Of a stretch of DNA of 64,000 nucleotides, positions 3,413 to 61,120 are shown piece by piece. Below the pieces are notes generated by a model. The model did no database searches, was not told the origin of the DNA, and saw nothing but the letters and a program-made list of their open reading frames with translations. Origin of the DNA: Agathobacter sp. (lineage in GTDB: Bacteria > Bacillota > Clostridia > Lachnospirales > Lachnospiraceae); NCBI GenBank assembly GCA_022772675.1, contig JALEZW010000046.1:1-64000 (forward strand), given 5' to 3'. Both the position numbers and the translations under genes were made by a program. How positions within the stretch are numbered: position 1 is the first letter of the stretch; each line of letters starts with the position of its first letter.

Positions 3413-3444
3413 AATATTAAGATGCAGGATTGCGGGGGGCAAGA

Positions 3445-3934
3445 CATTCGGTGGACAACACCTTTGCGTCTCCCTATAATCAAAGGCCACTGGATTTTGG
3501 GGCAGATTTTCCGGGGGTCTGTCACCTTTCCGATTCGGATGGAACGGATCAACCAGTCGGCCTTAAAAATTGCAAAGTGGCTGGTGAAGAGAGAAAATGT
3601 GACCTTTGTTTTCTACCCGGGACTGGAAAGTAATTCCGGTCATGAATTGGCGAAAAAGCAGATGGGACATGGCTTCGGAGGTGTAATCTCCTTTGGACTG
3701 AATACCGATGATAAAACCGTGGAACATTTCTGTGCAGCATTAAAGGTGGTTACCTTTGCGGTCTCTCTCGGACATGATGAGAGCCTCATTTTTCCGCAGC
3801 CAAGCAACGAGGAACGAATCCATCTGTATCCGGAACAATTCCGGAAGGGATTTATTCGTTTCAGCGTGGGCTTAGAAGATTCTGATGATATTATTGGGGA
3901 TCTGGACCTGGCACTTCGAACAGTAGGATTGTAG
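3445..3934 (+). pseudogene. Cystathionine gamma-synthase-like gene, internal-deletion copy A
   Basis: Compared with copy B (5988-6884), this copy keeps only a piece matching 6541-6606, then jumps to sequence matching 6752 onward. The junction is at a shared GATTTT, as expected of a slippage or short-homology deletion. The first part (SVDNTFASPYNQRPLDFGADF) is in a different frame from the rest, so no working protein results. From about 3505 to 3934 the frame encodes the family C-terminus (IFRGSVTFP...HELAKKQMGHGFGGVISF...FIRFSVGLED), which copy B has lost. The PLP lysine region is deleted. Confidence 0.8.
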
Positions 3935-5987: not shown

Positions 5988-6992
5988 ATGGCAAGAAAAG
6001 AGAACAGGTTTAAGGATTACGATATCACAACCCAGGCAATACATACAGGAACAGATTACGACAAGGAAACCGGAGCTGTGCGGAGACCCCTTCACATGGC
6101 AAACAGCTACAAGCTGCCGGACGATTTATCCCAGGTGAATTATTCTTCCACAGATCTTCTGATGTATGCCAGAAACGGCAATCCCAACCAGAAGTGGCTG
6201 GAGGAGAAAATCGCCGCCCTTCACGGTGCCGATGATGCAATCGTTCTTGCCAGCGGCGTTGCAGCACTGCATGCCCTGTTCTGGACCCTCCTTAAGAACG
6301 GAGACCGGGTGGTTTATCCCAACGTCAGTTACATGGCGGTATACCGTATGTTTCATGAACTGTTCCCTGAGAAATTCGGAATCGACGCCGTTATGGTGGA
6401 TATGACGGATCTGGATGCCGTGAAGGCTGCCATTACTCCGGGTACCCGACTGGTTCATATAGAGACGCCGGATAACCCCACCAACCGGGTGACGGATATC
6501 GAGGCTCTTGCAAAGATAGCCCATGAAAACGGTGCGATTCTTTCGGTGGACAACACCTTTGCCTCTCCTTATAACCAGAGACCGCTGGACTTTGGTGCGG
6601 ATTTTGTGGTGGAATCTGTGACCAAATATATCAATGGTCATGGCGATGCCCAGGGAGGTGCCATTATCTCCAATGATCTGGAAGAGATGGACCGTATCCG
6701 CTATGAGGCACAGGTCAATGTGGGTTCCGTCATCAGCCCATTCAACGCATGGCAGATTTTCCGGGGCTCCGTCACCTTCCCTCTTCGGATGGAGCGGATC
6801 AACCAGTCCGCATTAAAGATTGCTGAGTGGCTGGAGCAGAGAGAAAACGTGACCTTTGTTTCCTATCCGGGGCTGGAAAGCAATGCAATGCTTATCATCT
6901 GCGTGGTATTTTTGGTGTTGCTTATCGGTGCCGCAGTTGCCTATAAACTGGGTTACCTTGCACCACTTATCAATAATGTAACTAAGAAATAA
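5988..6992 (+). pseudogene. Cystathionine gamma-synthase-like gene, copy B, 3' truncated and fused to foreign sequence
   Basis: Residues 1-299 are a good N-terminal two thirds of a Cys/Met-metabolism PLP enzyme (cystathionine gamma-synthase, gamma-lyase or O-acylhomoserine sulfhydrylase). They include the aspartate motif VDNTFASPYNQRPL and the PLP lysine at about K213 (SVTKYINGHGD). Homology with copy A stops at about 6884. Residues 300-334 come from other DNA: a hydrophobic helix (MLIICVVFLVLLIGAAVAY) and a short tail, which look like the end of a membrane protein of the mobile element. The C-terminal domain is lost, so activity is unlikely. An AAGGAGG site precedes the start. The in-frame fusion may still be translated. 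Confidence 0.75.
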
Positions 6993-7073
6993 TATCTGAC
7001 CTGTTTGGTCGGAGTAATTTTGGCATCAGCCGGATTGCTCCGGCGGTGCCTCAGAAATAAGGAGGACAAACAA

Positions 7074-9452
7074 ATGGGTTTATTTACAGATGGGTTTAAG
7101 GAATTGAAAAAAGCAAGTGAACCACTTTACAAATCCCCTAAATCCATACAGGAAACAATTGAGATTATGGCAGTAGCGGAAAATGGTATCTTCGAAGTGG
7201 CAAGGAACCGTTACAGTAAATGTTATCTGTTTCAGGATATTAATTACACTACTACCAATGAGGATGAGCAGATAGATATCTTTGAGAGATACTGCAAGTT
7301 TCTCAATTCGCTTGACTGTAATTACAAGATTACGGTCAATAACAAGAATAAGAATATGACAGAGCTTCGGGAGAAGGTCATGTTCCCCAAGAAGGGTGAC
7401 GGCTTTGACGAGTACCGTCAGGCATACAACGACATCATTGAGGAGAAGATTCTGGATGGCAGACAGGGGATTGAACAGGAGAGGTATCTTACTCTTACGA
7501 TTGAGAGAAAGAACTTTGAAGAGGCAAAGGCACAGTTTGCCACACTGGAAGCAACAATTCACAAGGCATTTAATGAGCTTGGAACAGAGATTGTTCCTCT
7601 TACGGGTAATCAGAGACTTAAGATTCTCCATGATTTTTACCATTTAGGAAATGAGGAAGATTTTGACTTTGATATTAAGAAGGCAAAGAAGGTGGGAGCT
7701 GACTTTAAGAATGACCTCTGTAATGGGATGATTAAGTTCTTCCCGGACAGCTTTGAGGATGAGAGTAAGTTCTGTAAGGCACTTTTCATCAAGAAGTATC
7801 CAAGCAGCTTATCAGACAGGTTCTTGAATGAGATTACTTCATTACCTGTTCACTCTATTACAAGTATTGATGTAGTACCTGTGCCAAAGGATTTGACAAC
7901 CAAGACATTACAGAAGAAATACCTCGGTATCGAATCTGACATTATCAAACAGCAGAGAGTCCGTAACAAGAACAATGACTTTTCTTCTGAAATCTCTTAT
8001 GCAAAGAGAACGGAGAAAAAGGAAATTGAAGCAATCATGGATGATGTCCGTGAGAATGACCAGTGCCTGTTCTATGTGGGTGTGACTATCATTCTTATGG
8101 CAGATTCCAAGAAAGATCTTGAGAGTATTACGGAAACAGTTGAAACCATTGGAAAGAGAAACAGCTGTACCATTGATGTGCATTATCTGAAACAGAGGGA
8201 AGCACTCAATACAGCACTTCCGATTGGTGTAAGACAGGTGGAAACCATGAGAACCATGCTCACACAGTCCCTTGCGGTGCTTATGCCATTTAATGTTCAG
8301 GAGCTGAATGATGAGGGTGGTGTTTATTATGGTATCAATCAGGTAAGCAAGAATATCAATATCGGAAACCGAAAGAAGCTTATCAATGGAAATGGATTTG
8401 TATTCGGTGTACCGGGTTCAGGAAAATCCTTCTTCTGTAAAGCTGCGATGGGGCAGGTATTTCTTTCTACCGATGATGAAATCATAATTATAGATCCCAT
8501 GAACGAATACTTTGATATTGCGACAACCTATGGCGGCACGGTCATCAATATGTCCACTTACACGGACAACTATGTGAATCCTCTTGCCATGGATGTATGG
8601 AATCTTGACCAGAACGATACAAAGGGCTGGGTAAGGGAAAAAGGTGAGTTCATGCTTGGTCTTTGTGAGCAGTGTATCGGAGACAGTCTCAATTCCCGTC
8701 AGAAGTCCATTATTGACCGATGCGTAAGAAAGATGTATATCGACATTGCAAGAAGCAGAGAGAAGTATATTCCGGTTATGAGTGATTTTTATGATATTCT
8801 TATGGCACAGCCAGAGGAAGAGGCAAAAGAGATTGCCTTATCACTTGAGCTTTTTGTAAATGGTTCACTTAACATTTTTAATCATCAGACAAATGTGGAT
8901 GTGGATAACAGATTCGTAGTATATGGTATCAGAGACCTTGGAACAGAGCTTAGTCCGATTACAATGCTTGTAATGATGGAGTCTATCCAGCAGAGAATTG
9001 TGGAGAATGGAAAGAGGGGTAAGGCAACTTGGCTCTATATTGACGAGTTCCATGTCTTGCTTAATTCCGAGTATTCAGCGAAGTATTTACAGCAGCTTTG
9101 GAAGAAAGTAAGAAAGCAGGGCGGTCTTTGCACAGGCATCACGCAGAATGTCGTGGATCTTCTCCAGAACTACACTGCAACTACAATGCTGGCAAACAGT
9201 GAGTTTGTGGCACTTCTTAAACAGGCGAATACTGATAGTTCAAAGATGGCAGAGGTAATTGGAGTGTCGGATGCACAGCTTAGATTCGTAACAAACAGCC
9301 AGTCCGGTATGGGACTGTTAAAGTGCGGTAATGTGGTTATTCCATTCGATAATCAGATTAGTAAAGATACCAGTCTCTATAAGCTATACAACACAAATTT
9401 ACACGAAATAATCCAAGAACAGAAAGCGAAGGAGAAGCAGAAAAATTCATAG
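7074..9452 (+). CDS. VirB4-like conjugation ATPase
   Basis: The 792-residue protein powers the type IV secretion channel of an integrative conjugative element. It has an N-terminal VirB4/TraC-like domain, Walker A GVPGSGKSFF with K451, a Walker B helix WLYIDEFHVLL at about residue 652, and the downstream LRKQ-type segment (KKVRKQGGLCTGITQNV) of TraG/VirB4 ATPases. ATG 7074 follows GGAGG at 7061-7065; an upstream TTG at 7005 lacks a site. Length is normal for Gram-positive ICE VirB4. The usual neighbours (VirD4, VirB6-like, PrgI-like) are missing upstream because the element ends inside the gamma-synthase gene at about 6885. Confidence 0.9.
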   Translation: MGLFTDGFKELKKASEPLYKSPKSIQETIEIMAVAENGIFEVARNRYSKCYLFQDINYTTTNEDEQIDIFERYCKFLNSLDCNYKITVNNKNKNMTELREKVMFPKKGDGFDEYRQAYNDIIEEKILDGRQGIEQERYLTLTIERKNFEEAKAQFATLEATIHKAFNELGTEIVPLTGNQRLKILHDFYHLGNEEDFDFDIKKAKKVGADFKNDLCNGMIKFFPDSFEDESKFCKALFIKKYPSSLSDRFLNEITSLPVHSITSIDVVPVPKDLTTKTLQKKYLGIESDIIKQQRVRNKNNDFSSEISYAKRTEKKEIEAIMDDVRENDQCLFYVGVTIILMADSKKDLESITETVETIGKRNSCTIDVHYLKQREALNTALPIGVRQVETMRTMLTQSLAVLMPFNVQELNDEGGVYYGINQVSKNINIGNRKKLINGNGFVFGVPGSGKSFFCKAAMGQVFLSTDDEIIIIDPMNEYFDIATTYGGTVINMSTYTDNYVNPLAMDVWNLDQNDTKGWVREKGEFMLGLCEQCIGDSLNSRQKSIIDRCVRKMYIDIARSREKYIPVMSDFYDILMAQPEEEAKEIALSLELFVNGSLNIFNHQTNVDVDNRFVVYGIRDLGTELSPITMLVMMESIQQRIVENGKRGKATWLYIDEFHVLLNSEYSAKYLQQLWKKVRKQGGLCTGITQNVVDLLQNYTATTMLANSEFVALLKQANTDSSKMAEVIGVSDAQLRFVTNSQSGMGLLKCGNVVIPFDNQISKDTSLYKLYNTNLHEIIQEQKAKEKQKNS

Positions 9453-9478
9453 TATAATTGTGACACTTATGGTAAAAT

Positions 9479-9508
9479 CGTATCAGATGTCGAAAGATGT
9501 CTGATACG
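9479..9508 (+). promoter_or_regulatory. Hairpin in the leader of the 9529 gene
   Basis: CGTATCAGA (9479-9487) pairs with TCTGATACG (9500-9508) around a 12-base loop, 20 bases before the start codon and just before the AGAGGAAAGGA ribosome binding site. No T-run follows, so it is more likely a translation or processing element than a terminator. Confidence 0.45.
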
Positions 9509-9528
9509 AAGAGGAAAGGACGAGAAAT

Positions 9529-10053
9529 ATGAACAAAAGTGTCAGTATTATTACGGATTTGGATGGTTCAAAAATAGCCCTTATTAATGATATAAGATTT
9601 AAGTCGAGGAAGGGGATAGATTGGAATGAAGTAGAGCAGTATCTGAAAGAATATATTGGAGAATACTTTGAAATATCCGAAACCTCAGAGAAAATATATA
9701 TCGGTTCTGATTTTCCGGATGAGTTCAGTCATTCAAATGATACAAAGGGATTAAAAGGTGCTAATATGAAAGCGAAGGCAAACATTACGCCTGCTATTGG
9801 TGAACTTATCCAGATTGCTTCTGAAAAGGCACAGTATCCTGATTATAACAATAAACATGGAGCAAAGGCACAATTTGGATGGTATCGTTATAATACAAGA
9901 TTTGGAATACCGGTTTATGATGAAGATGGAAATCTGGAGCGTTATAACATTTTTTCAACAAGAATGCTTGTAAGATGTGATGCAGATGGAAAACTTTATC
10001 TATATGATTTGGTAAGAACAAAAAAAGAAACGAGCAAGCCGCATGAGCAATAG
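9529..10053 (+). CDS. Mobile-element protein, possibly PBECR-type nuclease fold
   Basis: This 174-residue protein is soluble, without signal peptide. The N-terminal half is charged. The C-terminal half (about residues 60-174) contains IYIGSDFPDEF, LKGANMKAKAN, HGAKAQFGWYRYNTRFGIPVYDEDG and a beta-rich end (MLVRCDADGKLYLYDL). This arrangement resembles the PBECR group (phage/ICE proteins with barnase/EndoU/ColicinE5-like folds) found as accessory proteins in mobile elements. The assignment is from recalled pattern, not from catalytic residues, so it is tentative. It lies between the VirB4 gene and another ICE-type small gene, with its own leader hairpin. Confidence 0.5.
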   Translation: MNKSVSIITDLDGSKIALINDIRFKSRKGIDWNEVEQYLKEYIGEYFEISETSEKIYIGSDFPDEFSHSNDTKGLKGANMKAKANITPAIGELIQIASEKAQYPDYNNKHGAKAQFGWYRYNTRFGIPVYDEDGNLERYNIFSTRMLVRCDADGKLYLYDLVRTKKETSKPHEQ

Positions 10054-10146
10054 CTGTACGGTAGTAAACTTCGTTTCTTTCTAACACCTATAATATAGGT
10101 TTATGTATTGTTTGTCAAGAAGAAAATCTTGAAAGGATGTGATTTC

Positions 10147-10386
10147 ATGGCATACAGCCAGCAACTTTGGGACGAAGCAAAAAGAAAATGTAAGCTTGGG
10201 GAAGAAGAAATAAGAATGGCAAAGGAAATGGGTCTTAATCCCAAGAGCCTGATTAAGAATATTCCAAATAAGAGCGAACAATGGAAAGCTCCTGTGAAAG
10301 AATGGATTCACGATATGTATGACAAAAGGCAGGAGAAGTCGAGAAAGAAAGCAGAACGAAAAACAAAAGGAAAAAATAACATTTAA
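10147..10386 (+). CDS. Small basic conserved ICE protein, 79 aa
   Basis: The product is helical and lysine/arginine-rich, without membrane segment. Its middle part (MAKEMGLNPKSLIKNIP, then QWKAPVKEWIHDMY) is of a kind seen repeatedly as a small hypothetical protein next to conjugation genes in Clostridia; function unknown. ATG 10147 was preferred over an upstream start at 10108 because GAAAGGATGTGA lies just before it. The basic tail suggests nucleic-acid contact. It ends just before a terminator. Confidence 0.65.
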   Translation: MAYSQQLWDEAKRKCKLGEEEIRMAKEMGLNPKSLIKNIPNKSEQWKAPVKEWIHDMYDKRQEKSRKKAERKTKGKNNI

Positions 10387-10388
10387 CT

Positions 10389-10427
10389 AAGCCGTTATGG
10401 AGAGTACATCTTCATGGCGGCTTTTTT
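10389..10427 (+). terminator. Intrinsic terminator
   Basis: An 11-bp stem (AAGCCGTTATG with CATGGCGGCTT, two G-U pairs) is followed by a six-T run. It separates the 79-residue protein gene from the NlpC/P60 gene. Confidence 0.7.
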
Positions 10428-10454
10428 GTTGGTATTTGAAAGAAGGTGAGAAAA

Positions 10455-12317
10455 TTGAAAATCAAAAAAGTCGATGACAAGCCTATGGTGATTCATACCA
10501 AGAAGAAAGCAAAGCTTCATACACATGAACCAAAGAAAGCGTCCATCAAAGCTTCCAACATTTATACGGTTGACCGCAGTCCGAAGATTAAAGGGTCGAA
10601 GATTGCAACTACTGAAAACAAGAAGTTTCGGAGAAGTACGATTCATCCGGTTGATAAAGCAAAGAAGGGAATGTTCAGGCAGTACCGGGCAGCATTAAAG
10701 GAATCCAAACAGTCCATTAAGACAAAGAACTCTTCCATTAAGGTGGCAGGAGCAGCCGGGGCACAGACTGCGTTAAGCCAGATGGAAGGCGGTGAGGAAG
10801 TAAAGGATGCGGCAAATATTGCTTATGTTGCAACAAGACCGGTAACGGGGACAGCATCCAAGGGAGCTGAATTGTTCAGGCGAAAGGCACTGGCTGAGAA
10901 AAGAAAGCGGATTAAAAAGGTGGAAGCCGGAAAGAAGCTTGCCAAGAAAACAGCAAAAGAAACTGCTAAGACCGCTGCAAAGGAGGCATCCAAAGAGACT
11001 GCCAAAGCAGCGGCAAAGGAAGGTGCAAAAGTAGCAGCAAAAGTTGGAACCACTGTTGCAGGAACAGCAGCCGGAGCAGAGACAGGTCCGTATGCTCCTC
11101 TGATTGGTATTGCTGTGGGTAAGGCGGTTGGAGATAAGATTGATAAGATGGATGCCCAGAGAAACAGCAGAAACCGAAAGATTAAGTTCTTTCTGGATAA
11201 GATGAAGGCAGAGGGTGAGCAGCAGGATAGTTTTGCAAAACTGGTTAAGGATTTGTTTGTCAACAAAATGGCACTACCCATCAAAAAGATTATGGTTGCA
11301 GTAGGAGGATTTTTGCTGGTACTTGTGTTACTCATTGCGGTAACAGTTCTTCCGGTAGTAGCAGTAATTGCTATTCTCTACAACTCGCCATTTGCTTTCT
11401 TTCTCCCACCACTGGAGTCGGGGGATACGGTCACTACGGTAACAAGTGCCTATGTCTCGGAGTTTAACAGGGATATTAATACTCTGGCAAATGAACACAC
11501 GGGATACGATACCGGGCAGATTGTGTATGTGGATTTTGAAGGGGAAAGTGCAGGAAACTTCAATGATATTGTCACCATCTATATGGTCAAATATGGCGTT
11601 GGGGATACTGCAACCGTTATGAATGATACTTCCAAGAGTAAGCTCAAAGAAGTATTTGACGATATGTGTTCCTACACAACAAGTTCCGGAAGTGAAACCA
11701 CTGAAAATGAGGATGGCTCAACCACTACACAGACTGTATTGTATGTCAATGTGAAGCTTAAAACCTGTTATGACATGATAACGGAATACAATTTCGATTC
11801 GGACCAAATCGAACTGGTTGAGGAAATGATGCGGATGTTTGGCAGTACAAGTGGTGTCACACCGCAATCAGCTCTGACACAGGCAGAGGTGGATGCCATT
11901 TTGCAGGGCATTACAGACCCGACACAGCGAACAGTTGTCTCCTATGCACTGACAAAGGTAGGCTATCCGTACAGTCAGCAGTACAGAGACACAGGCAATT
12001 ATTATGATTGCAGTTCCCTTGCCTACTATTCATGGAAAGCAGCCGGTATTGATATCAGCTACGGTGGAGCAAATACGGCAGCTGCAGAGGCAGAAGGTCT
12101 TGATAGTGCAGGTCATACGGTAGCTTATGCAGATATGCAGCCGGGAGATTTGATTTTCTACAGCTATGAGAGAAATGGCAGATACAAGAATATCAGTCAT
12201 GTGGCTGTGTATGCTGGAAATGGAATGGTGGTAGAAGCAAAGGGTGTTGCTTATGGCGTAACCTACAATGCAGTACCGAATGTGGGAAGCATTGTGCTCA
12301 TTGGCAGACCACAGTAA
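10455..12317 (+). CDS. ICE cell-wall hydrolase with NlpC/P60 domain
   Basis: The 620-residue protein has a basic, alanine/lysine-rich cytoplasmic N-terminus (about 1-275), one long hydrophobic membrane segment (about 279-310), an extracellular spacer and a C-terminal NlpC/P60 cysteine peptidase domain. The catalytic cysteine is C519 (YYDCSSLAYYSW) and the histidine is H582 (ISHVAVYAGNG). Such proteins open peptidoglycan for the conjugation channel. The start is probably TTG 10455, five bases after AAGGTGA; GTG 10446 sits too close to any site. Domain order matches conjugation hydrolases of clostridial ICEs, except that no separate lysozyme-like domain is obvious. Confidence 0.85.
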   Translation: MKIKKVDDKPMVIHTKKKAKLHTHEPKKASIKASNIYTVDRSPKIKGSKIATTENKKFRRSTIHPVDKAKKGMFRQYRAALKESKQSIKTKNSSIKVAGAAGAQTALSQMEGGEEVKDAANIAYVATRPVTGTASKGAELFRRKALAEKRKRIKKVEAGKKLAKKTAKETAKTAAKEASKETAKAAAKEGAKVAAKVGTTVAGTAAGAETGPYAPLIGIAVGKAVGDKIDKMDAQRNSRNRKIKFFLDKMKAEGEQQDSFAKLVKDLFVNKMALPIKKIMVAVGGFLLVLVLLIAVTVLPVVAVIAILYNSPFAFFLPPLESGDTVTTVTSAYVSEFNRDINTLANEHTGYDTGQIVYVDFEGESAGNFNDIVTIYMVKYGVGDTATVMNDTSKSKLKEVFDDMCSYTTSSGSETTENEDGSTTTQTVLYVNVKLKTCYDMITEYNFDSDQIELVEEMMRMFGSTSGVTPQSALTQAEVDAILQGITDPTQRTVVSYALTKVGYPYSQQYRDTGNYYDCSSLAYYSWKAAGIDISYGGANTAAAEAEGLDSAGHTVAYADMQPGDLIFYSYERNGRYKNISHVAVYAGNGMVVEAKGVAYGVTYNAVPNVGSIVLIGRPQ

Positions 12318-12334
12318 AAGAATATTTAAAGATT

Positions 12335-12366
12335 ACATCTGACAGAGCGTATGTTTTGTCAGATGT
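12335..12366 (+). terminator. Hairpin after the NlpC/P60 gene
   Basis: ACATCTGACA (12335-12344) pairs with TGTCAGATGT (12357-12366), followed by TTT. It ends the conjugation transcript just before the small precursor-like gene. Confidence 0.6.
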
Positions 12367-12385
12367 TTTCGGTTAGGATATGAAC

Positions 12386-12508
12386 ATGAAAGATATTTAT
12401 GAAACACCGGAAATGGAAATCGTTGAATTTGAAACAGAAGATGTGATAACAACAAGTGGTGGTGGGGCTATTGATACGCCTTTCGAACCGGCATATCTGT
12501 ATGAGTAA
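12386..12508 (+). CDS. Candidate RiPP precursor peptide, 40 aa
   Basis: This short gene encodes an acidic leader-like part beginning MKDIYETPEMEIVEF and a tail after TTS: three glycines, then AIDTPFEPAYLYE. The Y-x-x-P near the N-terminus (YETP, residues 5-8) is the motif that PqqD-like RRE proteins bind in lasso-peptide leaders. The threonine and serine before the glycines recall the Thr at -2 of lasso leaders, and a Glu lies 8, 9 or 10 residues into the tail depending on which glycine is first. It is isolated by terminators on both sides, as precursor genes often are, and lies upstream of an HprK-like kinase, PqqD-like protein, peptidase, exporter and nucleotidyltransferase. AGGA at 12375-12378 favours ATG 12386 over ATG 12380. 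No processing has been shown. Confidence 0.6.
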   Translation: MKDIYETPEMEIVEFETEDVITTSGGGAIDTPFEPAYLYE

Positions 12509-12524
12509 TCTGTTATGAAAAGCG

Positions 12525-12557
12525 AAAGCGGACACTGATGAAAGGTGTCCGCTTTTT
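12525..12557 (+). terminator. Terminator or attenuator after the precursor gene
   Basis: An 11-bp perfect stem (AAAGCGGACAC 12525-12535 with GTGTCCGCTTT 12545-12555) runs into a five-T run. In RiPP operons a leaky terminator here raises precursor levels over downstream genes. Confidence 0.8.
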
Positions 12558-12573
12558 ACAGGGAGGTATTAGT

Positions 12574-13296
12574 GTGAAAAAAGTAATTTTTATTCTTCTG
12601 GCTGTTATTCTGGTTGTATCATCAAGTGTGCAGACACAGGCTGCAGAACTGCCATTCGTTCCGGATGGAGAGGAAACTACCAGCGAAGTAAAAGATGACA
12701 AACAGGAAACAACAGAAGAAACAAAAAATGAAGTGACTCAAGAGACAAAAGAAGAAACGACTGCCACGAATAATGATTCAACAGATGGAAGCTTGGATAG
12801 TGATGATTCCACCACGAAAAGTGATGATATAGAGCTGCCTGTTGAAGCGGCCGGAGATAACACTCTATTGGCTGTTGATGATGGAATTGTAATTGATAAC
12901 GACAAGAAAGTAACTGTCGATAATGACAAGCATCTTGTAATTGTCGACAAAGATGGAAAGAAAACAGTAATTGACGATTCGCAGGAATACACAGAAACTG
13001 TTAATGAAAACGGACAAACAGTTATCCGCAATGCCCAAAACGAATCTGTTTCCGTATCAGATGATGGAACAGTCACTTTCTTTGATGCGGATGGAAACAG
13101 TGTTAGCAAGGACGTTGATGGTAACGTGATAGAAGCTGCTAAGGAGGGTATAACGGAAGTCACGGCAGAAGCAGCAGCGAATAATACCGGTGACAAAAAC
13201 TACTCAGTGCTTATCTTTGCTGTGACAGGAACCGTAGCCTTACTGCTTATTTCAGTAGCTGCAGTAATACTGGTAAAGAGGAAAAAACGTGGATAA
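12574..13296 (+). CDS. Secreted, membrane-anchored acidic surface protein
   Basis: The 240-residue protein starts at GTG 12574, seven bases after GGGAGGT. It has a signal peptide (hydrophobic core about 4-20, likely cut after QTQA). A low-complexity Glu/Thr/Lys/Asp region (about 25-85) follows, then a set of short beta-like repeats rich in D-x-D-K/G (VIDNDKKVTVDNDKHLVIVDKD and similar), and a C-terminal membrane segment with a basic stop-transfer KRKKRG. There is no LPXTG motif. It overlaps the kinase gene by 8 bases, so it belongs to the same transcript. A role as adhesin, immunity factor or export partner for the cassette product is possible but not indicated by any motif. Confidence 0.75.
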   Translation: MKKVIFILLAVILVVSSSVQTQAAELPFVPDGEETTSEVKDDKQETTEETKNEVTQETKEETTATNNDSTDGSLDSDDSTTKSDDIELPVEAAGDNTLLAVDDGIVIDNDKKVTVDNDKHLVIVDKDGKKTVIDDSQEYTETVNENGQTVIRNAQNESVSVSDDGTVTFFDADGNSVSKDVDGNVIEAAKEGITEVTAEAAANNTGDKNYSVLIFAVTGTVALLLISVAAVILVKRKKRG

Positions 13297-14041
13297 TATT
13301 ATTACAGTTAAAATTGCAGGGAAGATTATAGAAATATCACCACTGTACGACTATATTGCAGAGTACTGTAAATCTTATATAACAGAGGGTATTCCTGATT
13401 TTGTTGTCACGGTAACGCAGTTAGATATTGACTTTGAACGGGACAAGTCTGCCGCAGAAGATAGAAAAGAAGGCATCCCCATCCGCCATTTCACGGACGA
13501 GTATCTGGAAACCCTTGCGGTCTATCGTAAGATTGCGGAGCAGATGATATCTTTTGATACGATTTTGTTTCATAGCTCTGTCATTGCAGTGGATGGATTC
13601 GGCTATCTTTTTACAGCCAAGTCCGGCACAGGCAAGTCCACCCACACAAGAATGTGGCGGGAAACCTTTGGCGACAGAGCTGTTATGGTCAATGATGATA
13701 AGCCACTGCTACGGATAACGAAAGAGGGTGTCACTGCCTATGGGACGCCCTGGGACGGCAAGCACAGACTCAGTACCAATACATCCGTACCGTTAAAGGG
13801 CATCTGTATCATAGAGAGGGCGGCTGATAATCATATCGTAAGGCTTGATACAAAGGAGCAGTTGCGAAGTGCCTACCCGATGATGGTTCAGCAGACACAT
13901 AAGAGCAGTAATCCCGCAAATGCCCGAAGGACAATGGAACTGATAGACAGACTGATGGAAGCTGTGCCAATCTACCGGCTTTCTTGCAACATGGAACCAG
14001 AGGCTGCAAAGGTGGCTTATGAAGGGATGCAGAATGAATAG
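13289..14041 (+). CDS. HprK-like kinase of a RiPP-like cassette
   Basis: The 250-residue protein has a P-loop FTAKSGTGKSTHTRMW with K116, followed by a conserved acidic stretch MVNDDKPLL, as in the HPr kinase/PEP carboxykinase fold. It lacks the N-terminal domain of true HprK and is close in size and motif layout to the standalone kinases of paeninodin-type lasso clusters, which phosphorylate the precursor C-terminus. Here the precursor candidate has serine and threonine only near the glycines and at T-P-F-E, so the target is open. Start GTG 13289 overlaps the surface protein gene. The operon is interrupted downstream by a palindromic element and the AbiE pair. Confidence 0.8.
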   Translation: MDNIITVKIAGKIIEISPLYDYIAEYCKSYITEGIPDFVVTVTQLDIDFERDKSAAEDRKEGIPIRHFTDEYLETLAVYRKIAEQMISFDTILFHSSVIAVDGFGYLFTAKSGTGKSTHTRMWRETFGDRAVMVNDDKPLLRITKEGVTAYGTPWDGKHRLSTNTSVPLKGICIIERAADNHIVRLDTKEQLRSAYPMMVQQTHKSSNPANARRTMELIDRLMEAVPIYRLSCNMEPEAAKVAYEGMQNE

Positions 14042-14066
14042 AAACTTTCATGGATAAAATATTATG

Positions 14067-14222
14067 ATGATACCAGGGGCAAAAGGTCATACGTTTCATG
14101 CTTGCATGAAAAAGTATGACTTTGGGACCCGCCAAAACATGAGAAAGTAGCCCGAATAGGGCGGATTTCGAATGTTTTAGGATTGCGAGAGCACAAAGTG
14201 CGGAGCAATCCGTAGGTATCAT
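14067..14222. repeat. Structured palindromic element, family 2
   Basis: The 156-bp element has 8-bp inverted ends (ATGATACC 14067-14074 and GGTATCAT 14215-14222) and nested hairpins (GTCATAC/GTATGAC, CATGC/GCATG, GGATTGC/GCAATCC). It fills most of the gap between the kinase and AbiE genes. Its left part (GATACCAGGGGCAAAAGGTCA) is echoed at about 26401-26423. Confidence 0.55.
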
Positions 14223-14331
14223 ATTATAGTACGGAGTTTTATTTTCAAAAATATACAGCATAAACATAAAAATGCAGAAAAATATTGAAAATAAAAAATA
14301 CATGTAGTATGATGAACATGGAGGGATTGTT

Positions 14332-14925
14332 ATGCCAAAAATACTTGATTATCAGCTTCCGACTGAGCAAATGCTTTTTACAAAAAAGCAGTTAAATGAG
14401 CTTGGGGTCAGTTTTTATGGAATAAAGAAACTGGTGGAAGCCGGAACTCTTATCAAATTGAATAGCAGTGTATATGAGAATGCAACATACGAAGGTGAAG
14501 AATCTGACTTTTTCTATGTGACAGCATATGCGCCGGATGGGGTAGTCTGTCAGATGAGTGCTGCAAGGTATTATGGACTGACAACCTACTGGCCGGATGC
14601 TGTGGATGTTGCGATTGAAAGACGTAAAAAATTGTCTACAGTACCGGATTTTCCAAGGTTTAATGTTGTGTATTATTCAAAAAAAAGATATGAACTGGGA
14701 ATCGAAACCATTTCAGAGGGAAAGAATGCTTTCCGGATTTATGACATGGAAAAGACGGTTGCAGATATTCTTTTTTATCGGAATAAAGTTGGAATTGAAG
14801 AAACGAAAGAGGTTTTAGTCAATTATCTGGCAAGGAAAGAGAGAAATCTGAATAAGCTCCACCGCTATGCCAAAGAGCTTCGGTGTGAAAAGATACTTAG
14901 CACATATCTGGAGGTGCTCCTGTGA
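14332..14925 (+). CDS. abiEi: AbiEi-type antitoxin / transcriptional regulator
   Basis: The 197-residue protein has the AbiEi layout: an N-terminal winged helix (FTKKQLNELGVSFYGIKKLVEAG), then an A-P-D-G-V-V-C-Q-M-S-A-A-R-Y-Y-G-L segment, and a C-terminal domain with the EKTVADILFYR motif. AbiEi represses its own promoter and counters the AbiEii nucleotidyltransferase in a type IV toxin-antitoxin system that also acts as abortive phage defence. A GGAGGG site precedes the ATG. It overlaps abiEii by 4 bases (GTGA), the normal arrangement. Presence inside a peptide cassette is unusual. Confidence 0.88.
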   Translation: MPKILDYQLPTEQMLFTKKQLNELGVSFYGIKKLVEAGTLIKLNSSVYENATYEGEESDFFYVTAYAPDGVVCQMSAARYYGLTTYWPDAVDVAIERRKKLSTVPDFPRFNVVYYSKKRYELGIETISEGKNAFRIYDMEKTVADILFYRNKVGIEETKEVLVNYLARKERNLNKLHRYAKELRCEKILSTYLEVLL

Positions 14926-15821
14926 GAAATGCAGAGTCGGTAAAAGCAAGATTAAAAAATATAGCAAAAGAAACAGGAAGAACGATGCAGGATGTTTTGA
15001 TTGCTTATGGATTAGAGAGAACCATTATGCGGCTGACAAAGTCAAGCCATGTTGAGAATTTTACATTAAAGGGTGGTATTTTTTTGTATGCACTGATGGA
15101 TGGTGACTTTGCAAGAGCGACTACCGATATTGATTTACTGGCACAGGGTATCAGCAATGACATTGACAAAATGAAAGAGGTGTTTTGTGATATCTTTTCG
15201 GTGAAATTGGATGATCCGCTTTGGTATGACCTCGATTCCTTAAGTGTCAAAAGTATTACCGAATTTAAGGATTACCATGGTGTCAATGTAACGATAGATG
15301 CGTATCTTGACCGTACAAAGATACAGGTTTCTATTGATGTGGGGTTTGGCGATGTTATTTATCCAAAACGGGTTGTGATGGATTTTCCGGTTATATTGAG
15401 TGAAGAAAATCCAAGAGTGTATGCATATTCTTTGAGTTCCAGCATAGCAGAAAAATTTGAGGCGATTGTATCTCTTGGATATGACAATAGCAGATTTAAG
15501 GATTTTTACGATATTTACATTTTATCAGGAAAATATGATATGGATGGTTCCGAGTTAATGGAGGCATGTAAAGAGACATTTGGTCATCGCCATACATCAT
15601 TTGATGATATTGCGGCGTTTGAAGATGATTATGCATCAGATCCGGTCAGACAGTCCCGATGGAAGTCTTTTGCAAAGAAAAAGAAAGTACAGATAGATGT
15701 TACATTAAAAGAAACGATTGAACAGATTAGAGCATTTGTAGAACCAATGGTTGATGCAATAAATTGCAATGAAAAGTTTATGAAAACTTGGAAGCATGAT
15801 TCAAAATCATGGGAGGAATAA
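14922..15821 (+). CDS. abiEii: AbiEii/AbiGii-type nucleotidyltransferase toxin
   Basis: The 299-residue protein carries the nucleotidyltransferase signatures of AbiEii: FTLKGGIFLYAL, then ARATTDIDLLAQG with the DxD pair, YHGVNVTIDAYLD and the helical SSSIAEKFEAIVSLGYDNSRFKDFYDIY block. The family transfers nucleotides to tRNA or other targets to stop growth during infection or antitoxin loss. The start is GTG, overlapping abiEi. The pqqD-like gene starts only 3 bases after its stop, so AbiE and the following cassette genes are probably cotranscribed. Confidence 0.88.
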   Translation: MRNAESVKARLKNIAKETGRTMQDVLIAYGLERTIMRLTKSSHVENFTLKGGIFLYALMDGDFARATTDIDLLAQGISNDIDKMKEVFCDIFSVKLDDPLWYDLDSLSVKSITEFKDYHGVNVTIDAYLDRTKIQVSIDVGFGDVIYPKRVVMDFPVILSEENPRVYAYSLSSSIAEKFEAIVSLGYDNSRFKDFYDIYILSGKYDMDGSELMEACKETFGHRHTSFDDIAAFEDDYASDPVRQSRWKSFAKKKKVQIDVTLKETIEQIRAFVEPMVDAINCNEKFMKTWKHDSKSWEE

Positions 15822-15824
15822 TAC

Positions 15825-16082
15825 ATGAAGCTAAAGGACACCTATATCACCCACGATAGTGATGGAGAACAGATTTTGTTAGACACAAGCAGCTCCTTTG
15901 CGGGACTGATTCGTAACAATAAGACAGCGGCATTTATCGTGGAGTGCTTAAAGGAAGATACCACAGAGGAGAAAATTGTGGAAGCAATGTTTGAAAAGTA
16001 TGATGCACCGACGGATGTACTTGCAAGGGATGTGTCAGAGGTGATAGGAAAGTTAAGGAAAGTTGGAGCTTTAGATGAGTAA
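15825..16082 (+). CDS. PqqD-like RRE protein
   Basis: This 85-residue protein fits the PqqD fold: two N-terminal strands (DTYITHDSDGEQILLDTSS), the FAGLIRNNKTAAFIVECLKED helix and the winged-helix part ending in VIGKLRKVGALDE. PqqD-like proteins bind RiPP leader peptides and present them to enzymes; in lasso clusters the equivalent is B1. It overlaps the next gene by 8 bases, so the pair is probably coupled in translation. It shares a transcript with AbiEii (3-base gap). The Y-x-x-P motif in the 40-residue peptide gives it a plausible ligand. Confidence 0.85.
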   Translation: MKLKDTYITHDSDGEQILLDTSSSFAGLIRNNKTAAFIVECLKEDTTEEKIVEAMFEKYDAPTDVLARDVSEVIGKLRKVGALDE

Positions 16083-16554
16083 GACAACTTACGAAGAATA
16101 TCTCAAACGATATGGAACCCTGATTTATAAAAATACCGGAACCAGTATGCTGCCCCTACTAAAGCAGGGCAGGGATGCTTTTATTGTGAGGGCAGTTGGT
16201 GAGTATGAAACCTGTAAAAAATGGGATGTGGTTCTGTACAAAAGACCACCGGAAAGCTATGTGCTTCACCGGGTGGTGCGGGTACATGATAAAGGCTACG
16301 ATATTCTTGGAGATAACTGTATCGGGATTGAGAGAAATATTCCAAAAGGTGCTGTCATTGGTGTGATGACCGGATTTATACGGAATGGAAAGAAATACCC
16401 GGCAGACAGTACACTTTATAAGTTGTATGTTTTATTCTGGTGCAAGCCATACCGGATTAGGATACTGCTTAAGAAAATATGGCTGAAGTGTTCTCATATA
16501 TTGAGAAAATGTAACTGTTCAGAGCCAAGCAGATTTATCAAAAAAGAGCGATGA
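16075..16554 (+). CDS. S24/S26-like peptidase, S26B (SipW-like) motif set
   Basis: The 159-residue protein contains TGTSMLPLLKQGRDAFIV (nucleophile serine in TSM), WDVVLYKR, YVLHRVVRV and YDILGDNCIG. A histidine in HRVV instead of a lysine is the S26B signal-peptidase pattern. There is no N-terminal membrane anchor; a hydrophobic/basic stretch near residues 121-143 may touch the membrane. In this cassette it is the only protease visible and so the best candidate for leader removal. Residues from about 146 onward are encoded inside a palindromic element (16511-16651), so the C-terminus has been replaced by repeat DNA; the catalytic part is intact. Confidence 0.75.
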   Translation: MSKTTYEEYLKRYGTLIYKNTGTSMLPLLKQGRDAFIVRAVGEYETCKKWDVVLYKRPPESYVLHRVVRVHDKGYDILGDNCIGIERNIPKGAVIGVMTGFIRNGKKYPADSTLYKLYVLFWCKPYRIRILLKKIWLKCSHILRKCNCSEPSRFIKKER

Positions 16555-16651
16555 ATGCTTGCATTCAAGAGCACTTTTTTGTATAAATCTATTTGGCGGA
16601 TACGCCACACCGAGAAAACGACAGTTTTCGAGGTTGGCTCTGAACAGTTAC
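16511..16651. repeat. Palindromic repeat element, family 1, copy 2
   Basis: The 141-bp element has perfect 17-bp terminal inverted repeats (GTAACTGTTCAGAGCCA 16511-16527 and its complement 16635-16651) and internal hairpins. It overlaps the last 44 bases of the S26-like gene and fills the gap before the exporter gene. The ends are related to those at 4035-4164. Confidence 0.85.
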
Positions 16652-16701
16652 GAGAAAGTAATAAAAAATGAATTTGTCTTTACGGCGAAACATAGGCAGG
16701 A

Positions 16702-18384
16702 ATGAATGATATTATGAAAGAGAATAAAAAGGACAATCAGACCACTGCCCTTCGTTACATCAGCGAGGTGGCAGGACGTGGCAAATTGTATATCGTTATT
16801 TTACTGCTGGTGCAGATGGTTCTCGGTATCAGCAGTGTTTTTTATGCCCTTTTGCTTCGTGGTATCATAGATGCTGCCGTAGCCCACGATAAGAACGGGA
16901 TGCTACTTCATATCATTTTATTCTCATCTCTTGTGGTGGGGCAGATTGCCCTTCGGGCAGTGTTACGTTTCTTAGAGGAATTTTCCAAGGCAACTTATGA
17001 GAATGCCTTTAAGAAAAGGCTGTTTCGTGAACTTCTTATGAGAGATTACGGGGAAGTGACAGCTGTTCATTCCGGGGAATGGATGAACCGCCTGACCTCG
17101 GATACGGTGGTGGTAGCGGAAGGACTTTCTACCATTGTTCCGGGAGTGGCAGGAATGATTACCAGAATGGCAGGTGCTCTTGTGGTGATTCTCATGATGG
17201 TGCCGAAGTTTTTCTATATTCTTGTACCGGGTGGTATTCTGCTGGTTCTCCTGACCTATGCTTTCCGCAAGAGATTAAAAAAGCTCCATAAAAGGATGCA
17301 GGAAAAGGATGGCATTGTCCGAATCTTTCTGCAGGAGCATCTGGGAAGTCTGATGATCGTGAAGGCTTTTGAAAGAGAAGAGGAAAGTGTCTTGCAGGCG
17401 GAAAACTTAATGGCAGACCACAAAAAGGCTCGCATGAAGAAGAATCATTTTTCCAATATATGTAACATCGGCTTTGGCGGTGTCATGAATGGAGCGTATG
17501 TACTGGGTGCCGTATATGGAGCCTTTGGAATTTATAACGGAACCATGACCTACGGAATCTTTATGGCGATGTTACAGCTAATCAGCCAGATACAAAATCC
17601 CTTTGCCAATATCACCGGGTATCTGCCTAAGTATTTTGCCATGACAGCCAGTGCCGAAAGACTGATGGAAGGGGAAGAATATAAGCCGGGTAAAAAGAAA
17701 TCCCTGACGGTATCTCAGGTAAAAGACTACTATGAAAACCGATTTGAGGCGCTTTGTATGAACCATGTGGATTTTTCCTATGAGGAAGATAATGAAGTGC
17801 TAAAGGATTATTCTCTTACCGTCCGTAAGGGTGAGTTTGTGGCATTTACCGGAGCTTCCGGCTGTGGCAAGAGTACGGTGCTAAAGCTCTTGTTAGGATT
17901 ATATAAGCCGCAGGCAGGAACGGTTACCCCGGATGAAAGCTATAAAAGGCTTTTTGCCTATGTGCCCCAGGGCAATCACTTAATGAGCGGAACCATACGC
18001 AGTGTGGTGGCATTTGCTGACCTTAAGGAGCAGGAGAATGAGGAGCGGTTAAATAACGCTCTTAATCTAGCCTGTTGTGATTTTGTAAGTGAACTGCCTT
18101 GCGGGGCAGATACAGTGCTTGGAGAACGGGGGCTTGGGTTATCGGAGGGACAGATGCAGAGACTCGCTATCGCAAGGGCAGTCTTTTCAGAAAGTCCGAT
18201 ACTGATTCTTGATGAAGCCACTTCCGCACTGGATGCGGATACCGAGAGAAAAGTGCTTCAGAATATCAGGTCCATGACGGATAAGACCGTCATTATCGTA
18301 ACCCACAGACCGGCGGCTTTGTCGGTATGTGACAGGGAGATACATTTTGGAGAGGAGATGGAACATGCAAAAGGAGATAGATAA
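16702..18384 (+). CDS. ABC exporter (fused TMD-NBD) of the cassette
   Basis: The 560-residue half transporter has about six membrane segments in residues 25-310 and a C-terminal ATPase domain with Walker A TGASGCGKST at about residue 384, a Q-loop, an ABC signature in the divergent form LSEGQMQRLAIARA and Walker B ILILDEATSALD. There is no N-terminal C39 peptidase domain, so the leader must be removed by another protein. Type and position match the exporter (D) gene of lasso and related peptide clusters. The nucleotidyltransferase gene overlaps its end by 20 bases. Confidence 0.9.
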   Translation: MNDIMKENKKDNQTTALRYISEVAGRGKLYIVILLLVQMVLGISSVFYALLLRGIIDAAVAHDKNGMLLHIILFSSLVVGQIALRAVLRFLEEFSKATYENAFKKRLFRELLMRDYGEVTAVHSGEWMNRLTSDTVVVAEGLSTIVPGVAGMITRMAGALVVILMMVPKFFYILVPGGILLVLLTYAFRKRLKKLHKRMQEKDGIVRIFLQEHLGSLMIVKAFEREEESVLQAENLMADHKKARMKKNHFSNICNIGFGGVMNGAYVLGAVYGAFGIYNGTMTYGIFMAMLQLISQIQNPFANITGYLPKYFAMTASAERLMEGEEYKPGKKKSLTVSQVKDYYENRFEALCMNHVDFSYEEDNEVLKDYSLTVRKGEFVAFTGASGCGKSTVLKLLLGLYKPQAGTVTPDESYKRLFAYVPQGNHLMSGTIRSVVAFADLKEQENEERLNNALNLACCDFVSELPCGADTVLGERGLGLSEGQMQRLAIARAVFSESPILILDEATSALDADTERKVLQNIRSMTDKTVIIVTHRPAALSVCDREIHFGEEMEHAKGDR

Positions 18385-19564
18385 GACAGGGGAGGATATG
18401 CTTTATCTTATTACCTGTGCACTCCACAGTAAAACACCGGATAAAGACAAGGTTTGTGGCATGGACCTTGCTGCTCTCTATCGTTATGCCGGACGCCATA
18501 CCCTTGCAGCGATTACCTATGATGCACTGGAACTGCTTGGAGGCAGCACTGGGGATGGACTGCTAGCCATAGCAAAGGATGATACCCTTGTTTCTGTTCT
18601 TACAAAATGGAAGGAGACAAGGGATAAGGCACTACGCAAGAATCTGATGTTAGATGCAGCCAGAAAGAAATTGTTTCAATATATGGATGCAGAGCATATC
18701 TGGCATATGCCCCTGAAGGGTGCGATTTTAAAAGAACTGTACCCGAGACAGGAAATGCGCCAGATGGCAGATAACGATATTCTGTTTGATGCGAATTATG
18801 AAGCGGCTGTAAAGGATTATTTTGTAAGGGAAGGCTATGAAGTGATTTCTTATGCAAAAGGGAATCATGATGTATATGAGAAGGAGCCAGTCTATAATTT
18901 TGAGATGCATACCTCCCTGTTTGGAGAGGCACATAATGAGGTATGGGCAGAATATTATAAGGACATTCAATCAAAACTGATTAAGAGTGATAATTATTGT
19001 CTGTACTCATTTACCGACGAGGATTTTTATATCTATTTTATCGTCCACGCCTTCAAGCACTTTGACGGGTGCGGCACCGGAATCCGCTACTTTGTGGACT
19101 CTTATGTCTATCAGAATGCCAAGGAACTGGACCTGGGCTATATTGAGGGAGAACTGGATAAGTTAGGTGTACTTGCATTTGAAAAGACCTTCCGAAGTAT
19201 TTCCAAGAAGATATTCGGAAAAGGTGAGGATGTAAGTCAGTTAAGCGGGGAAGAATACAGTATGCTTTGCGACAGTATGTTTGCAGGAACCTACGGAAAC
19301 TTACAATCCGGCATTGGCAAAAAGCTTCATAAAATACAGGGGAATGAGGACAGGATAACGAAGAATACGAAAGCGAAATATATCATTGGCAGACTGTTTC
19401 CGCCCATGTCTTATTACAAAGCATATTATCCATTTATATATAAGACTAGAATATTCATACCCTTTTTTGTGATATTCCGAATGGTAAGGGGAGTATTGCA
19501 GCATGGGAAGGAAATGATGAGGGAAATTAGGGTGGTTGTGAAAATTGATCAGGCTGATAATTAG
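18365..19564 (+). CDS. Nucleotidyltransferase family protein (NTP_transf_5 type)
   Basis: The 399-residue protein has the core motif MPLKGAILKELYP...RQMADNDILFD near residues 117-140, the marker of the uncharacterised nucleotidyltransferase family often next to RiPP exporters, including paeninodin-type lasso clusters. The metal-binding acid pair is D-N-D rather than the usual D-x-D-L, still consistent with activity. ATG 18365 was chosen: GGAGATGGA precedes it, and it overlaps the exporter gene end. It closes the cassette and is followed by a terminator. Substrate unknown; modification of the peptide or of a carrier is the likely class of function. Confidence 0.8.
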   Translation: MQKEIDKTGEDMLYLITCALHSKTPDKDKVCGMDLAALYRYAGRHTLAAITYDALELLGGSTGDGLLAIAKDDTLVSVLTKWKETRDKALRKNLMLDAARKKLFQYMDAEHIWHMPLKGAILKELYPRQEMRQMADNDILFDANYEAAVKDYFVREGYEVISYAKGNHDVYEKEPVYNFEMHTSLFGEAHNEVWAEYYKDIQSKLIKSDNYCLYSFTDEDFYIYFIVHAFKHFDGCGTGIRYFVDSYVYQNAKELDLGYIEGELDKLGVLAFEKTFRSISKKIFGKGEDVSQLSGEEYSMLCDSMFAGTYGNLQSGIGKKLHKIQGNEDRITKNTKAKYIIGRLFPPMSYYKAYYPFIYKTRIFIPFFVIFRMVRGVLQHGKEMMREIRVVVKIDQADN

Positions 19565-56033: not shown

Positions 56034-56134
56034 AAAAAAACCCTAAGATAGAATCTTAGGATTCATGCACACACTGTGCAACCGGAAAACCGGCGGTTTG
56101 GTAAAAACTTTATTTGAACTCGCAATGTAAATTC
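56034..56134 (-). ncRNA. tracrRNA (antisense to cas9 leader)
   Basis: On the minus strand the transcript from about 56134 begins with an anti-repeat: ATGAATTTACATTG is the exact complement of the first half of the CRISPR repeat apart from one end base, followed by a bulge and GTTCAAAT, which pairs with GTTTGA at the repeat start. Then come a nexus region, a CCGG-TTTT-CCGG-type hairpin, GCACAC/GTGTGC, and a terminator CCTAAGA/TCTTAGG (56060-56042) followed by seven T (56040-56034). The length of about 100 nt is normal for type II-A. Start and end are inferred from the promoter and terminator. Confidence 0.85.
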
Positions 56135-56140
56135 ATTGTT

Positions 56141-56169
56141 ATAATATCACGAAGGAGGATATATGTCAA
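56141..56169 (-). promoter_or_regulatory. tracrRNA promoter
   Basis: On the minus strand TTGACA (56169-56164), exactly 17 bases, TATTAT (56146-56141). The -35 box ends one base before the cas9 ATG at 56171, and the spacer covers the cas9 ribosome site. Confidence 0.8.
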
Positions 56170-56170
56170 G

Positions 56171-60229: not shown

Positions 60230-60250
60230 TTTAAAGTTGAAGGTGAAGGT

Positions 60251-61120
60251 ATGGGGTTTCGTACAATAAAAATTACAAAAAGAGCAAAACTAAATCTGAC
60301 AATGGGATTTCTTGAAATAAGGGGAGAACAGACACTTAAGGTATTTCTTGATGATATTGATATTTTGGTGATTGACAATCCGGCTGTATCAATGACGGCA
60401 ACACTAATGTCGGCTTTGATGAAGAAAAAGATTAAAGTCATTTTCTGCGATGAAAAGAGGAATCCGCAAGGAGAATTGATTCCCTATTATGGCAGTGGGG
60501 ATAGTGCAAGAAAAGTAAAAATGCAGACCACATGGTCTAATTCGGTGAAGGAACGTGTCTGGACTGTGATTGTCCGGGAAAAAATCAGTAACCAGGCGCG
60601 CTTCCTCAGTGAATTGGGAAAGAGTAGGGAAGAAGAACTTTTGGAAAGTTATATAGAAAATCTTTCTGAAGGGGATAAGACCAATCGGGAGGGGCTGGCT
60701 GCAAAGGTGTATTTTAATGCATTGTTTGGCATGGATTTTAAGAGAGATGAGGAGACAACAGTGAATGCAGCATTGAACTATGGATATTCTCTACTTTTGT
60801 CAGCTGTTAACAAGGAAATTTCGTACAATGGTTATATTACACAGCTTGGTTTGTTTCACGATAATATCTATAATCCGTTTAATCTTGCATCAGATTTGAT
60901 GGAACCATTTCGCGTGTTGGTGGATCGCATGGTTTTTGAATCAGAATTTACAAAATTTGAGACAGAGGAAAAACATGTTCTTCTCCATCTTCTGGAAAAA
61001 GAAATTAAGATTGGTGGGAGCAAGCAGGTACTTACCAATGGAATTCGAATTTATGTGAGAAGTGTATTTGACGCATTATGTGATGATAATCCACAGGAGA
61101 TTTTGTTTTATACATTATGA
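60251..61120 (+). CDS. cas1: CRISPR integrase Cas1 (type II)
   Basis: The 289-residue protein inserts new spacers with Cas2. It shows the type II Cas1 blocks: EIRGEQTLKVFLDDIDILVIDN, the NREGLAAKVYFNALFG glutamate, the LGLFHDNIYNPFNLASDLMEPFR histidine and aspartate. GAAGGTGAAGGT precedes the ATG. It overlaps cas2 by 4 bases. Confidence 0.95.
   Translation: MGFRTIKITKRAKLNLTMGFLEIRGEQTLKVFLDDIDILVIDNPAVSMTATLMSALMKKKIKVIFCDEKRNPQGELIPYYGSGDSARKVKMQTTWSNSVKERVWTVIVREKISNQARFLSELGKSREEELLESYIENLSEGDKTNREGLAAKVYFNALFGMDFKRDEETTVNAALNYGYSLLLSAVNKEISYNGYITQLGLFHDNIYNPFNLASDLMEPFRVLVDRMVFESEFTKFETEEKHVLLHLLEKEIKIGGSKQVLTNGIRIYVRSVFDALCDDNPQEILFYTL

Follow-up and report, generated by a model that had tools for sequence, protein, structure and literature searches.

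What can be made by a cassette that carries the accessory genes of a lasso-peptide cluster but neither its cyclase nor its B2 protein? This question is raised by a locus of Agathobacter sp. (Bacteria; Bacillota; Clostridia; Lachnospirales; Lachnospiraceae), located in a window of 64,000 nucleotides (positions 1 to 64,000 of the forward strand of contig JALEZW010000046.1, NCBI GenBank assembly GCA_022772675.1). Sequence reading and family scans identify seven cassette genes that share the + strand between positions 12380 and 19564 of the window. With a probability of roughly two in three, we regard the cassette as a divergent clostridial relative of the machinery that produces linear polyphosphorylated peptides (LPPs), the phosphopeptide of which would act outside the cell together with a surface protein. 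Gene context shows that, in related gut Clostridia, the kinases of such cassettes share their genomes with scattered peptide genes, from a single one to many, and that these tend to follow genes for secreted proteins.

LPPs have been described for the lppA-K-B-S-D-N genes of Paenibacillus alginolyticus (Popov et al. 2026, May, Nat Commun, PMC13381572). According to the main text of that paper, core Ser3 undergoes kinase-dependent mono- to tetraphosphorylation, the leader is cut by LppS, which resembles signal peptidase I (SpI), together with LppB, a recognition element (RRE) for ribosomally synthesized and post-translationally modified peptides (RiPPs), and LppN had no detectable effect in the test host. 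The biological role of LPPs is stated there to be unknown; each cluster holds one to three precursors, and the genome map covers Bacilli. The window cassette shares with this system, as described, the core set of kinase, discrete RRE, SpI-like peptidase, MsbA-like exporter and NTP transferase in the order K-B-S-D-N, the lack of a cyclase, a YxxP leader, a conserved Ser, and RRE and peptidase residues that match by position. An earlier, sequence-only reading had proposed a class not yet described; PMC13381572 in fact describes such a class, with an identical set of core genes and with (poly)phosphorylation that depends on the kinase. The same reading had located all seven genes correctly and overlooked an AbiEi/AbiEii pair between the kinase and PqqD genes; its precursor of 40 residues has 42, the lower figure arising only if the second ATG is taken as the start. 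The features are as follows.

12380..12508, +: precursor peptide, LppA-like, 42 aa, with a YETP-motif leader, conserved Ser26 and the acidic tail GGGAIDTPFEPAYLYE
12538..13296, +: surface protein, 252 aa, with a signal peptide, a low-complexity part and a C-terminal membrane/LPXTG-like anchor
12646..12663, +: ELPFVP motif, residues 37-42 of the surface protein, near its predicted mature N-terminus
13289..14041, +: HprK/PEPCK-fold kinase, LppK-like, with H95, K116, D136 and D137
14042..15822, no strand: insertion between the kinase and PqqD genes, borders approximate, absent from the relative L245
14332..14925, +: AbiEi-like antitoxin/regulator of a type IV toxin-antitoxin pair (PF13338 at 4.8e-4, below cut-off)
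14922..15821, +: AbiEii-type nucleotidyltransferase toxin (PF08843 at 9.9e-38)
15825..16082, +: PqqD-like RRE, LppB-like, with conserved N32 and D69 (1.7e-13, over cut-off)
16075..16554, +: S26B signal-peptidase-like leader peptidase, LppS-like, with S24/H65/D80 (signal peptidase I model at 4.2e-6, below cut-off)
16506..16665, no strand: palindromic element bounded by 18-bp inverted ends; its sequence is identical in L245
16702..18384, +: ABC exporter, MsbA-like, LppD-like (PF00664 and PF00005, no C39 match)
18365..19564, +: NTP_transf_5 nucleotidyltransferase-like protein, LppN-like (2.8e-36)

Several lines of evidence connect the individual enzymes to this type of chemistry. In the kinase, H95, K116, D136 and D137 are invariant in all 22 rows of the near set, the window among them; they correspond to the HKDD motif given in PMC9266682. 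The predicted structure of the window kinase (pLDDT 93.6) is matched by Foldseek to PEPCK/HprK structures with a probability of 1.00 and modest TM-scores, and its match to the ScmC model (1.7e-6) lies under the cut-off of that model. N32 and D69 of the RRE, kept in 0.98 and 0.92 of 126 rows, are counterparts, by position and without a direct alignment to LppB, of N33 and D70, described as the LppB residues that hold the leader Pro and Tyr. The peptidase residues S24, H65 and D80 are each present in 1.00 of 111 rows; the catalytic residues reported for LppS are S29, H68 and D93, with a different spacing to the Asp. When compared with known structures, however, the gut RRE profile matched the lasso RREs 6jx3 (E 0.00098), 5v1u (0.0026) and 9x90 (0.032) better than 9x8z, which is LppB (0.31).

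An HprK-type kinase, a PqqD-like B1 and often an NTP transferase are likewise common to the paeninodin-type lasso clusters presented in PMC9266682 (PadeK/ThcoK), and the earlier description of a RiPP-like cassette akin to these clusters and lacking both cyclase and B2 is supported by homology: scans of the cassette genes found neither a macrolactam cyclase nor B2. Such a content could be left by a paeninodin-type cluster that lost both genes after moving onto a mobile element and no longer yields a product. The splitting of the operon by the AbiE insertion would suit this type of decay, as would the accessory genes themselves and the PqqD-like protein, whose matches to lasso PqqD models are weak and below cut-off and whose family profile places lasso RREs above LppB. 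We nevertheless judge it quite improbable, because similar gene sets recur in other genomes, the enzyme reading frames are of full length with their key residues conserved, and the leaders have a Tyr where those described for paeninodins have a Trp. Among 34 genomes with kinase or peptide, B2 (PF13471) exceeded its cut-off in none, with weak sub-threshold matches in three, and a search of the window's own genome gave no B2 over cut-off. The sequence-only reading had held that its case would fall if related genomes always carried B2 or a cyclase elsewhere, with matching phylogeny. For B2 this was covered in the 34 genomes; the cyclase search covered the window's own genome, in which the one Asn_synthase match lies on another contig in an open frame of 647 aa. 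The window peptide also differs from paeninodins in having no C-terminal Ser.

A second RiPP-like locus is present in the same genome (G000), on contig C31 (L071, ~7866-14261). It contains ABC, S26, NTP_transf_5, PqqD and kinase genes, along with a YxxP precursor that has Cys and a radical-SAM-like protein with a CxxxCxxC motif, as read from the sequence; the accessory set of the cassette thus occurs with a radical-SAM type too.

The gene at 12380 is more than a chance open reading frame (ORF), because the window peptide, used as a single query, found look-alikes beside related kinases (E down to 9.6e-9 in 11,557 ORFs), and because a homologue occupies the corresponding position in L245, the closest named relative. 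Later peptide profiles include the window peptide itself, and the scores they give it therefore carry no weight. In an alignment of 65 homologues, the leader YxxP has its Tyr in 61 rows and its Pro in 49, and all 64 rows having a residue at the Tyr position show Y or F there, not the W of the WxxP leader described for paeninodins. At the position of the conserved Ser, 62 rows have a residue, and in all 62 it is Ser. Tails were measured on 61 peptides (one of 62 could not be parsed): none carries a positive net charge, 57 are free of Cys, and 12 have no Ser or Thr beyond the conserved Ser. A kinase target common to all of them would consequently have to be that Ser or lie in the leader.

The peptides and the kinase tend to occur in the same genomes. 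Two genome samples with some members in common were searched: 397 genomes of one family, probably Lachnospiraceae (the first family), using peptide profile A1 at E <= 1e-3, and an order sample of 295 genomes (the second family), using profile A2 at E <= 1e-4. Kinase-positive genomes numbered 51/397 (E <= 1e-20) and 47/295 (E <= 1e-5), and peptide-positive ones 26/397 and 32/295. The kinase was present in 24 of the 26 peptide-positive genomes of the first family and in 31 of the 32 of the second (Fisher p 3e-22 and 5e-29, values that treat the genomes as unrelated). Since all leaders in A2 but one (L066) come from the first family, the second family serves as a nearly independent test. The two peptide-positive genomes of the first family that fall outside the kinase set have cassette-type genes beside the peptide: NTP_transf_5 at L204, and kinase, PqqD, NTP_transf_5 and S26 at L211. 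Conversely, 27/51 kinase-positive genomes of the first family and 16/47 of the second gave no peptide at these thresholds.

Single genomes hold up to 10 peptide matches in the first family and up to 18 in the second (E <= 0.01), on different contigs. The sequence-only reading had proposed to test whether a YxxP peptide always lies beside such a cassette. Within 5.5 kb of the kinase, in the 79 of 80 named loci for which the kinase ORF was obtained, a peptide was found in 33, PqqD in 60, S26 in 57, ABC in 40 and NTP_transf_5 in 36. Because the peptides proved to be scattered in whole-genome searches, adjacency is too narrow as a test. The named hosts of these loci include Coprococcus catus, Ruminococcus flavefaciens, Faecalibacterium prausnitzii, Kandleria vitulina and metagenome-assembled genomes (MAGs) of Atopobiaceae. 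The Atopobiaceae copies (L317, L318), in which cassette genes were observed, hint at transfer beyond Clostridia, provided that the bins are clean. In L047-L062 of the second family, a kinase-PqqD-S26 trio stands amid housekeeping genes, with neither the exporter nor the NTP_transf_5 gene of the cassette beside it, yet most of the genomes concerned hold scattered peptides; at L033 and L034 close relatives of the kinase (53% and 49% identity) have no recognized PqqD nearby.

Many of the scattered peptide genes immediately follow a gene for a secreted protein, and this link between peptide and surface-protein genes was overlooked in the sequence-only reading, which had listed both. For the second family, 20 regions were examined, one per genome and mostly the best match (in G194, a match further from the contig end) from the more than 150 matches listed. 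Each of the 22 peptides in these regions starts between -19 and 59 bp from the end of an upstream gene that runs in the same direction; a signal peptide is predicted for 17 of the 22 upstream genes, and three of the remaining five run off the contig end. In the first family, where 62 peptide places were retained after removal of four duplicate or near-duplicate loci, a co-directional gene lies within 350 bp upstream in 51, further off in nine, and two places are at an edge. Of these 51 upstream genes, 28 were scored as secreted, compared with 190 of 1042 background genes, and the remainder includes genes truncated by a contig end, kinase genes, and places where, as in the window, the secreted gene lies on the opposite side. 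Pfam matches were found in nine of ten partner proteins scanned and are of differing kinds, while several partner groups have C-terminal domains in common. One such domain was counted where it came within 25 residues of the protein's end; in named loci, 17 of its 19 occurrences precede a peptide gene, and two of these loci are also training loci of the domain profile. This domain was detected in 13/397 genomes, 12 of them kinase-positive and 11 peptide-positive.

These arrangements could also be expected of ordinary secreted effectors, such as bacteriocins or pheromones, if adjacency reflected nothing other than shared regulation or the duplication of two-gene units. A conserved leader with a variable tail is typical of RiPPs, the distribution is patchy, and co-duplication could spread tail types and partner types alike. 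Many antimicrobial peptides carry a positive net charge, in contrast to all 61 tails measured here; furthermore, adjacency is seen in two families whose tails and partners differ, and the tails resemble the end of an anchored protein nearby more closely than permuted pairs do. For these reasons, we consider ordinary effectors unlikely.

The anchored proteins in question, here called stalks, are low-complexity proteins encoded nearby and attached by a signal or transmembrane segment. They were recognized in 26 of 92 peptide loci (12/57 and 14/35), and in several of them the stalk gene sits between those of the peptide and the kinase, a slot occupied in the window by the surface protein (16.7 bits against the LPXTG_anchor model, cut-off 15.9, E 0.0086). 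Stalks often have a lipobox and end in a short motif, which in several relatives is the ELPFVP of the window protein, and similar motifs occur in peptide tails. In 22 loci selected by composition, anchor and distance, the summed similarity between stalk and peptide tails of the same locus was 563, compared with 360 +/- 28 for permuted pairs (0/20,000) and 327 +/- 16 for shuffled tails (0/2,000). The own stalk ranked first in 7/22 loci, with ties counted in its favour, and among the top three in 12/22. The window was left out of this comparison because its motif lies at the opposite end: ELPFVP stands near the predicted mature N-terminus of a protein anchored at its C-terminus, which again makes the motif membrane-distal. 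No other convincing locus with this orientation was seen among the loci examined.

Some of these tail pairs are near identical (DEDGWTVIIVKP and DEDGWTTIIVKP at L194; DELPWVPA and DELPWIPA at L278), which is what a recent partial gene duplication or conversion would leave behind, in which case the likeness would not reflect a shared binding partner. Other pairs retain the motif alone (TMPEI and ELPEI at L245, VDPFAG and LLDPFE at L285), on proteins without a common leader, and the window motif is near the opposite end of a differently anchored protein. Recent copying as the source of the likeness thus appears improbable.

By homology with LPP, a sequence of events can be proposed for a divergent LPP-type system. 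The PqqD-like protein would bind the small peptide through its YxxP leader, the HprK-type kinase would phosphorylate the conserved Ser at the boundary of leader and core, the peptidase, with its substrate presented by the RRE, would remove the leader, and the ABC pump would export the linear product. A nucleotide or a sugar may be attached to the phosphate by the NTP_transf_5 protein. PsmN, the nucleotidyltransferase-like protein that accompanies the kinase PsmK in pseudomycoidin biosynthesis, is reported in PMC9266682 to add one or two hexoses to phospho-Ser, although pseudomycoidin, unlike the putative product here, is a lasso peptide with its Ser at the C-terminus. The sequence-only reading had allowed for a phosphorylated or a nucleotidylated linear peptide; homology makes the phosphorylated form the most likely. 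Peptide-kinase co-occurrence and gene counts suggest that the cassette enzymes act in trans on scattered peptides. Since the genes are adjacent and the tails of stalk and peptide alike, the mature phosphopeptide may work extracellularly with a surface protein, showing the same docking tail as the stalk.

A number of observations weigh against this explanation. The gut leaders lack the HQ...FETxxS part of the LPP consensus YxxPxVLxHQxIxFETxxS as published, and their Tyr-to-Ser distance is 19 residues rather than 18, so the window cassette is treated as an LPP variant; as the gut RRE profile also ranks LppB below lasso RREs, its place in the LPP clade is uncertain. In a wider kinase set, D136 is replaced by Gly in 5/16 rows, and several second-family loci consist of the K-B-S trio with neither exporter nor NTP_transf_5 alongside. 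The Fisher p values ignore the kinship of genomes, profile A1 was trained on peptides from such loci, and the C-terminal-domain profile was derived from the very genes that precede peptides. In the first family, 11/62 places have no co-directional gene within 350 bp, and 23/51 of such genes were not scored as secreted. A stalk was recognized in just over a quarter of peptide loci, and in three of the 22 loci compared the own stalk ranks 17, 21 and 22. Finally, the window genome has one peptide and, at E <= 1e-5, no protein with the conserved C-terminal domain. The window copy therefore looks isolated and may be an orphan.

A more specific and rather doubtful proposal is that LPPs serve as docking tags attached to the cell wall. 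A phospho-Ser elaborated by NTP_transf_5 would link the peptide to a surface glycan, the tails of peptide and stalk would be two kinds of anchor, and secreted adhesins and glycosidases, every one encoded together with a peptide of its own, would bind these tails through their C-terminal domains and so be retained on the cell, giving a form of surface display based on RiPPs.

The history of the window copy can be partly read from L245, a 5.7-kb MAG contig assigned to 'Eubacteriales bacterium', which has 91.9% DNA identity to positions 15823-19543 of the window. The gap between the kinase and PqqD genes is 41 bp in L245 and 1783 bp in the window, so that ~1.74 kb represents an insertion. Gain of the AbiE pair in the window lineage is likelier than loss from that of L245, because the operon is split. 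Upstream of the cassette are genes for a TraG/VirB4-type ATPase (7005-9452) and an NlpC/P60 protein (10446-12317), which fit a conjugative element; of the decayed integrative and conjugative element proposed in the sequence-only reading, this is the part that was checked and found. The window copy thus lies among or next to mobile-element genes, is interrupted by an AbiE insertion and has its stalk motif near the mature N-terminus.

Other features of the window include two partial genes for a Cys/Met pyridoxal-phosphate enzyme, a C-terminal part at 3422-3934 and an N-terminal part at 5988-6992, with other genes between them; the second runs into a short membrane segment. This looks like an insertion into, or a duplication of, that gene. 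One 43-bp end of the palindromic element recurs, with 88% identity, between the surface-protein and peptide genes of Coprococcus catus (L104/L252). At 56114-62099, a large protein that reads by eye as Cas9 is followed by ORFs that likewise read as Cas1-like and Csn2-like.

The scattered precursors and their pairing with secreted-protein genes, together with the stalk proteins and their matching tails, set the gut systems apart from LPP clusters as described. The main text of PMC13381572 does not contain the words Clostridia, lipoprotein, secreted, adhesin, Ruminococcus or orphan, and its Bacillota sequences may include some from Clostridia; peptide-kinase co-occurrence, scattered peptides, secreted-protein pairing and stalk tails in gut Clostridia go beyond that text. 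Precursors paired with secreted-protein genes, and some stalks that copy their tails, turn the open role of LPPs into a question of binding and localization. If the docking proposal were true, gut Clostridia would hold enzymes and adhesins on their surface using neither sortase nor cohesin.

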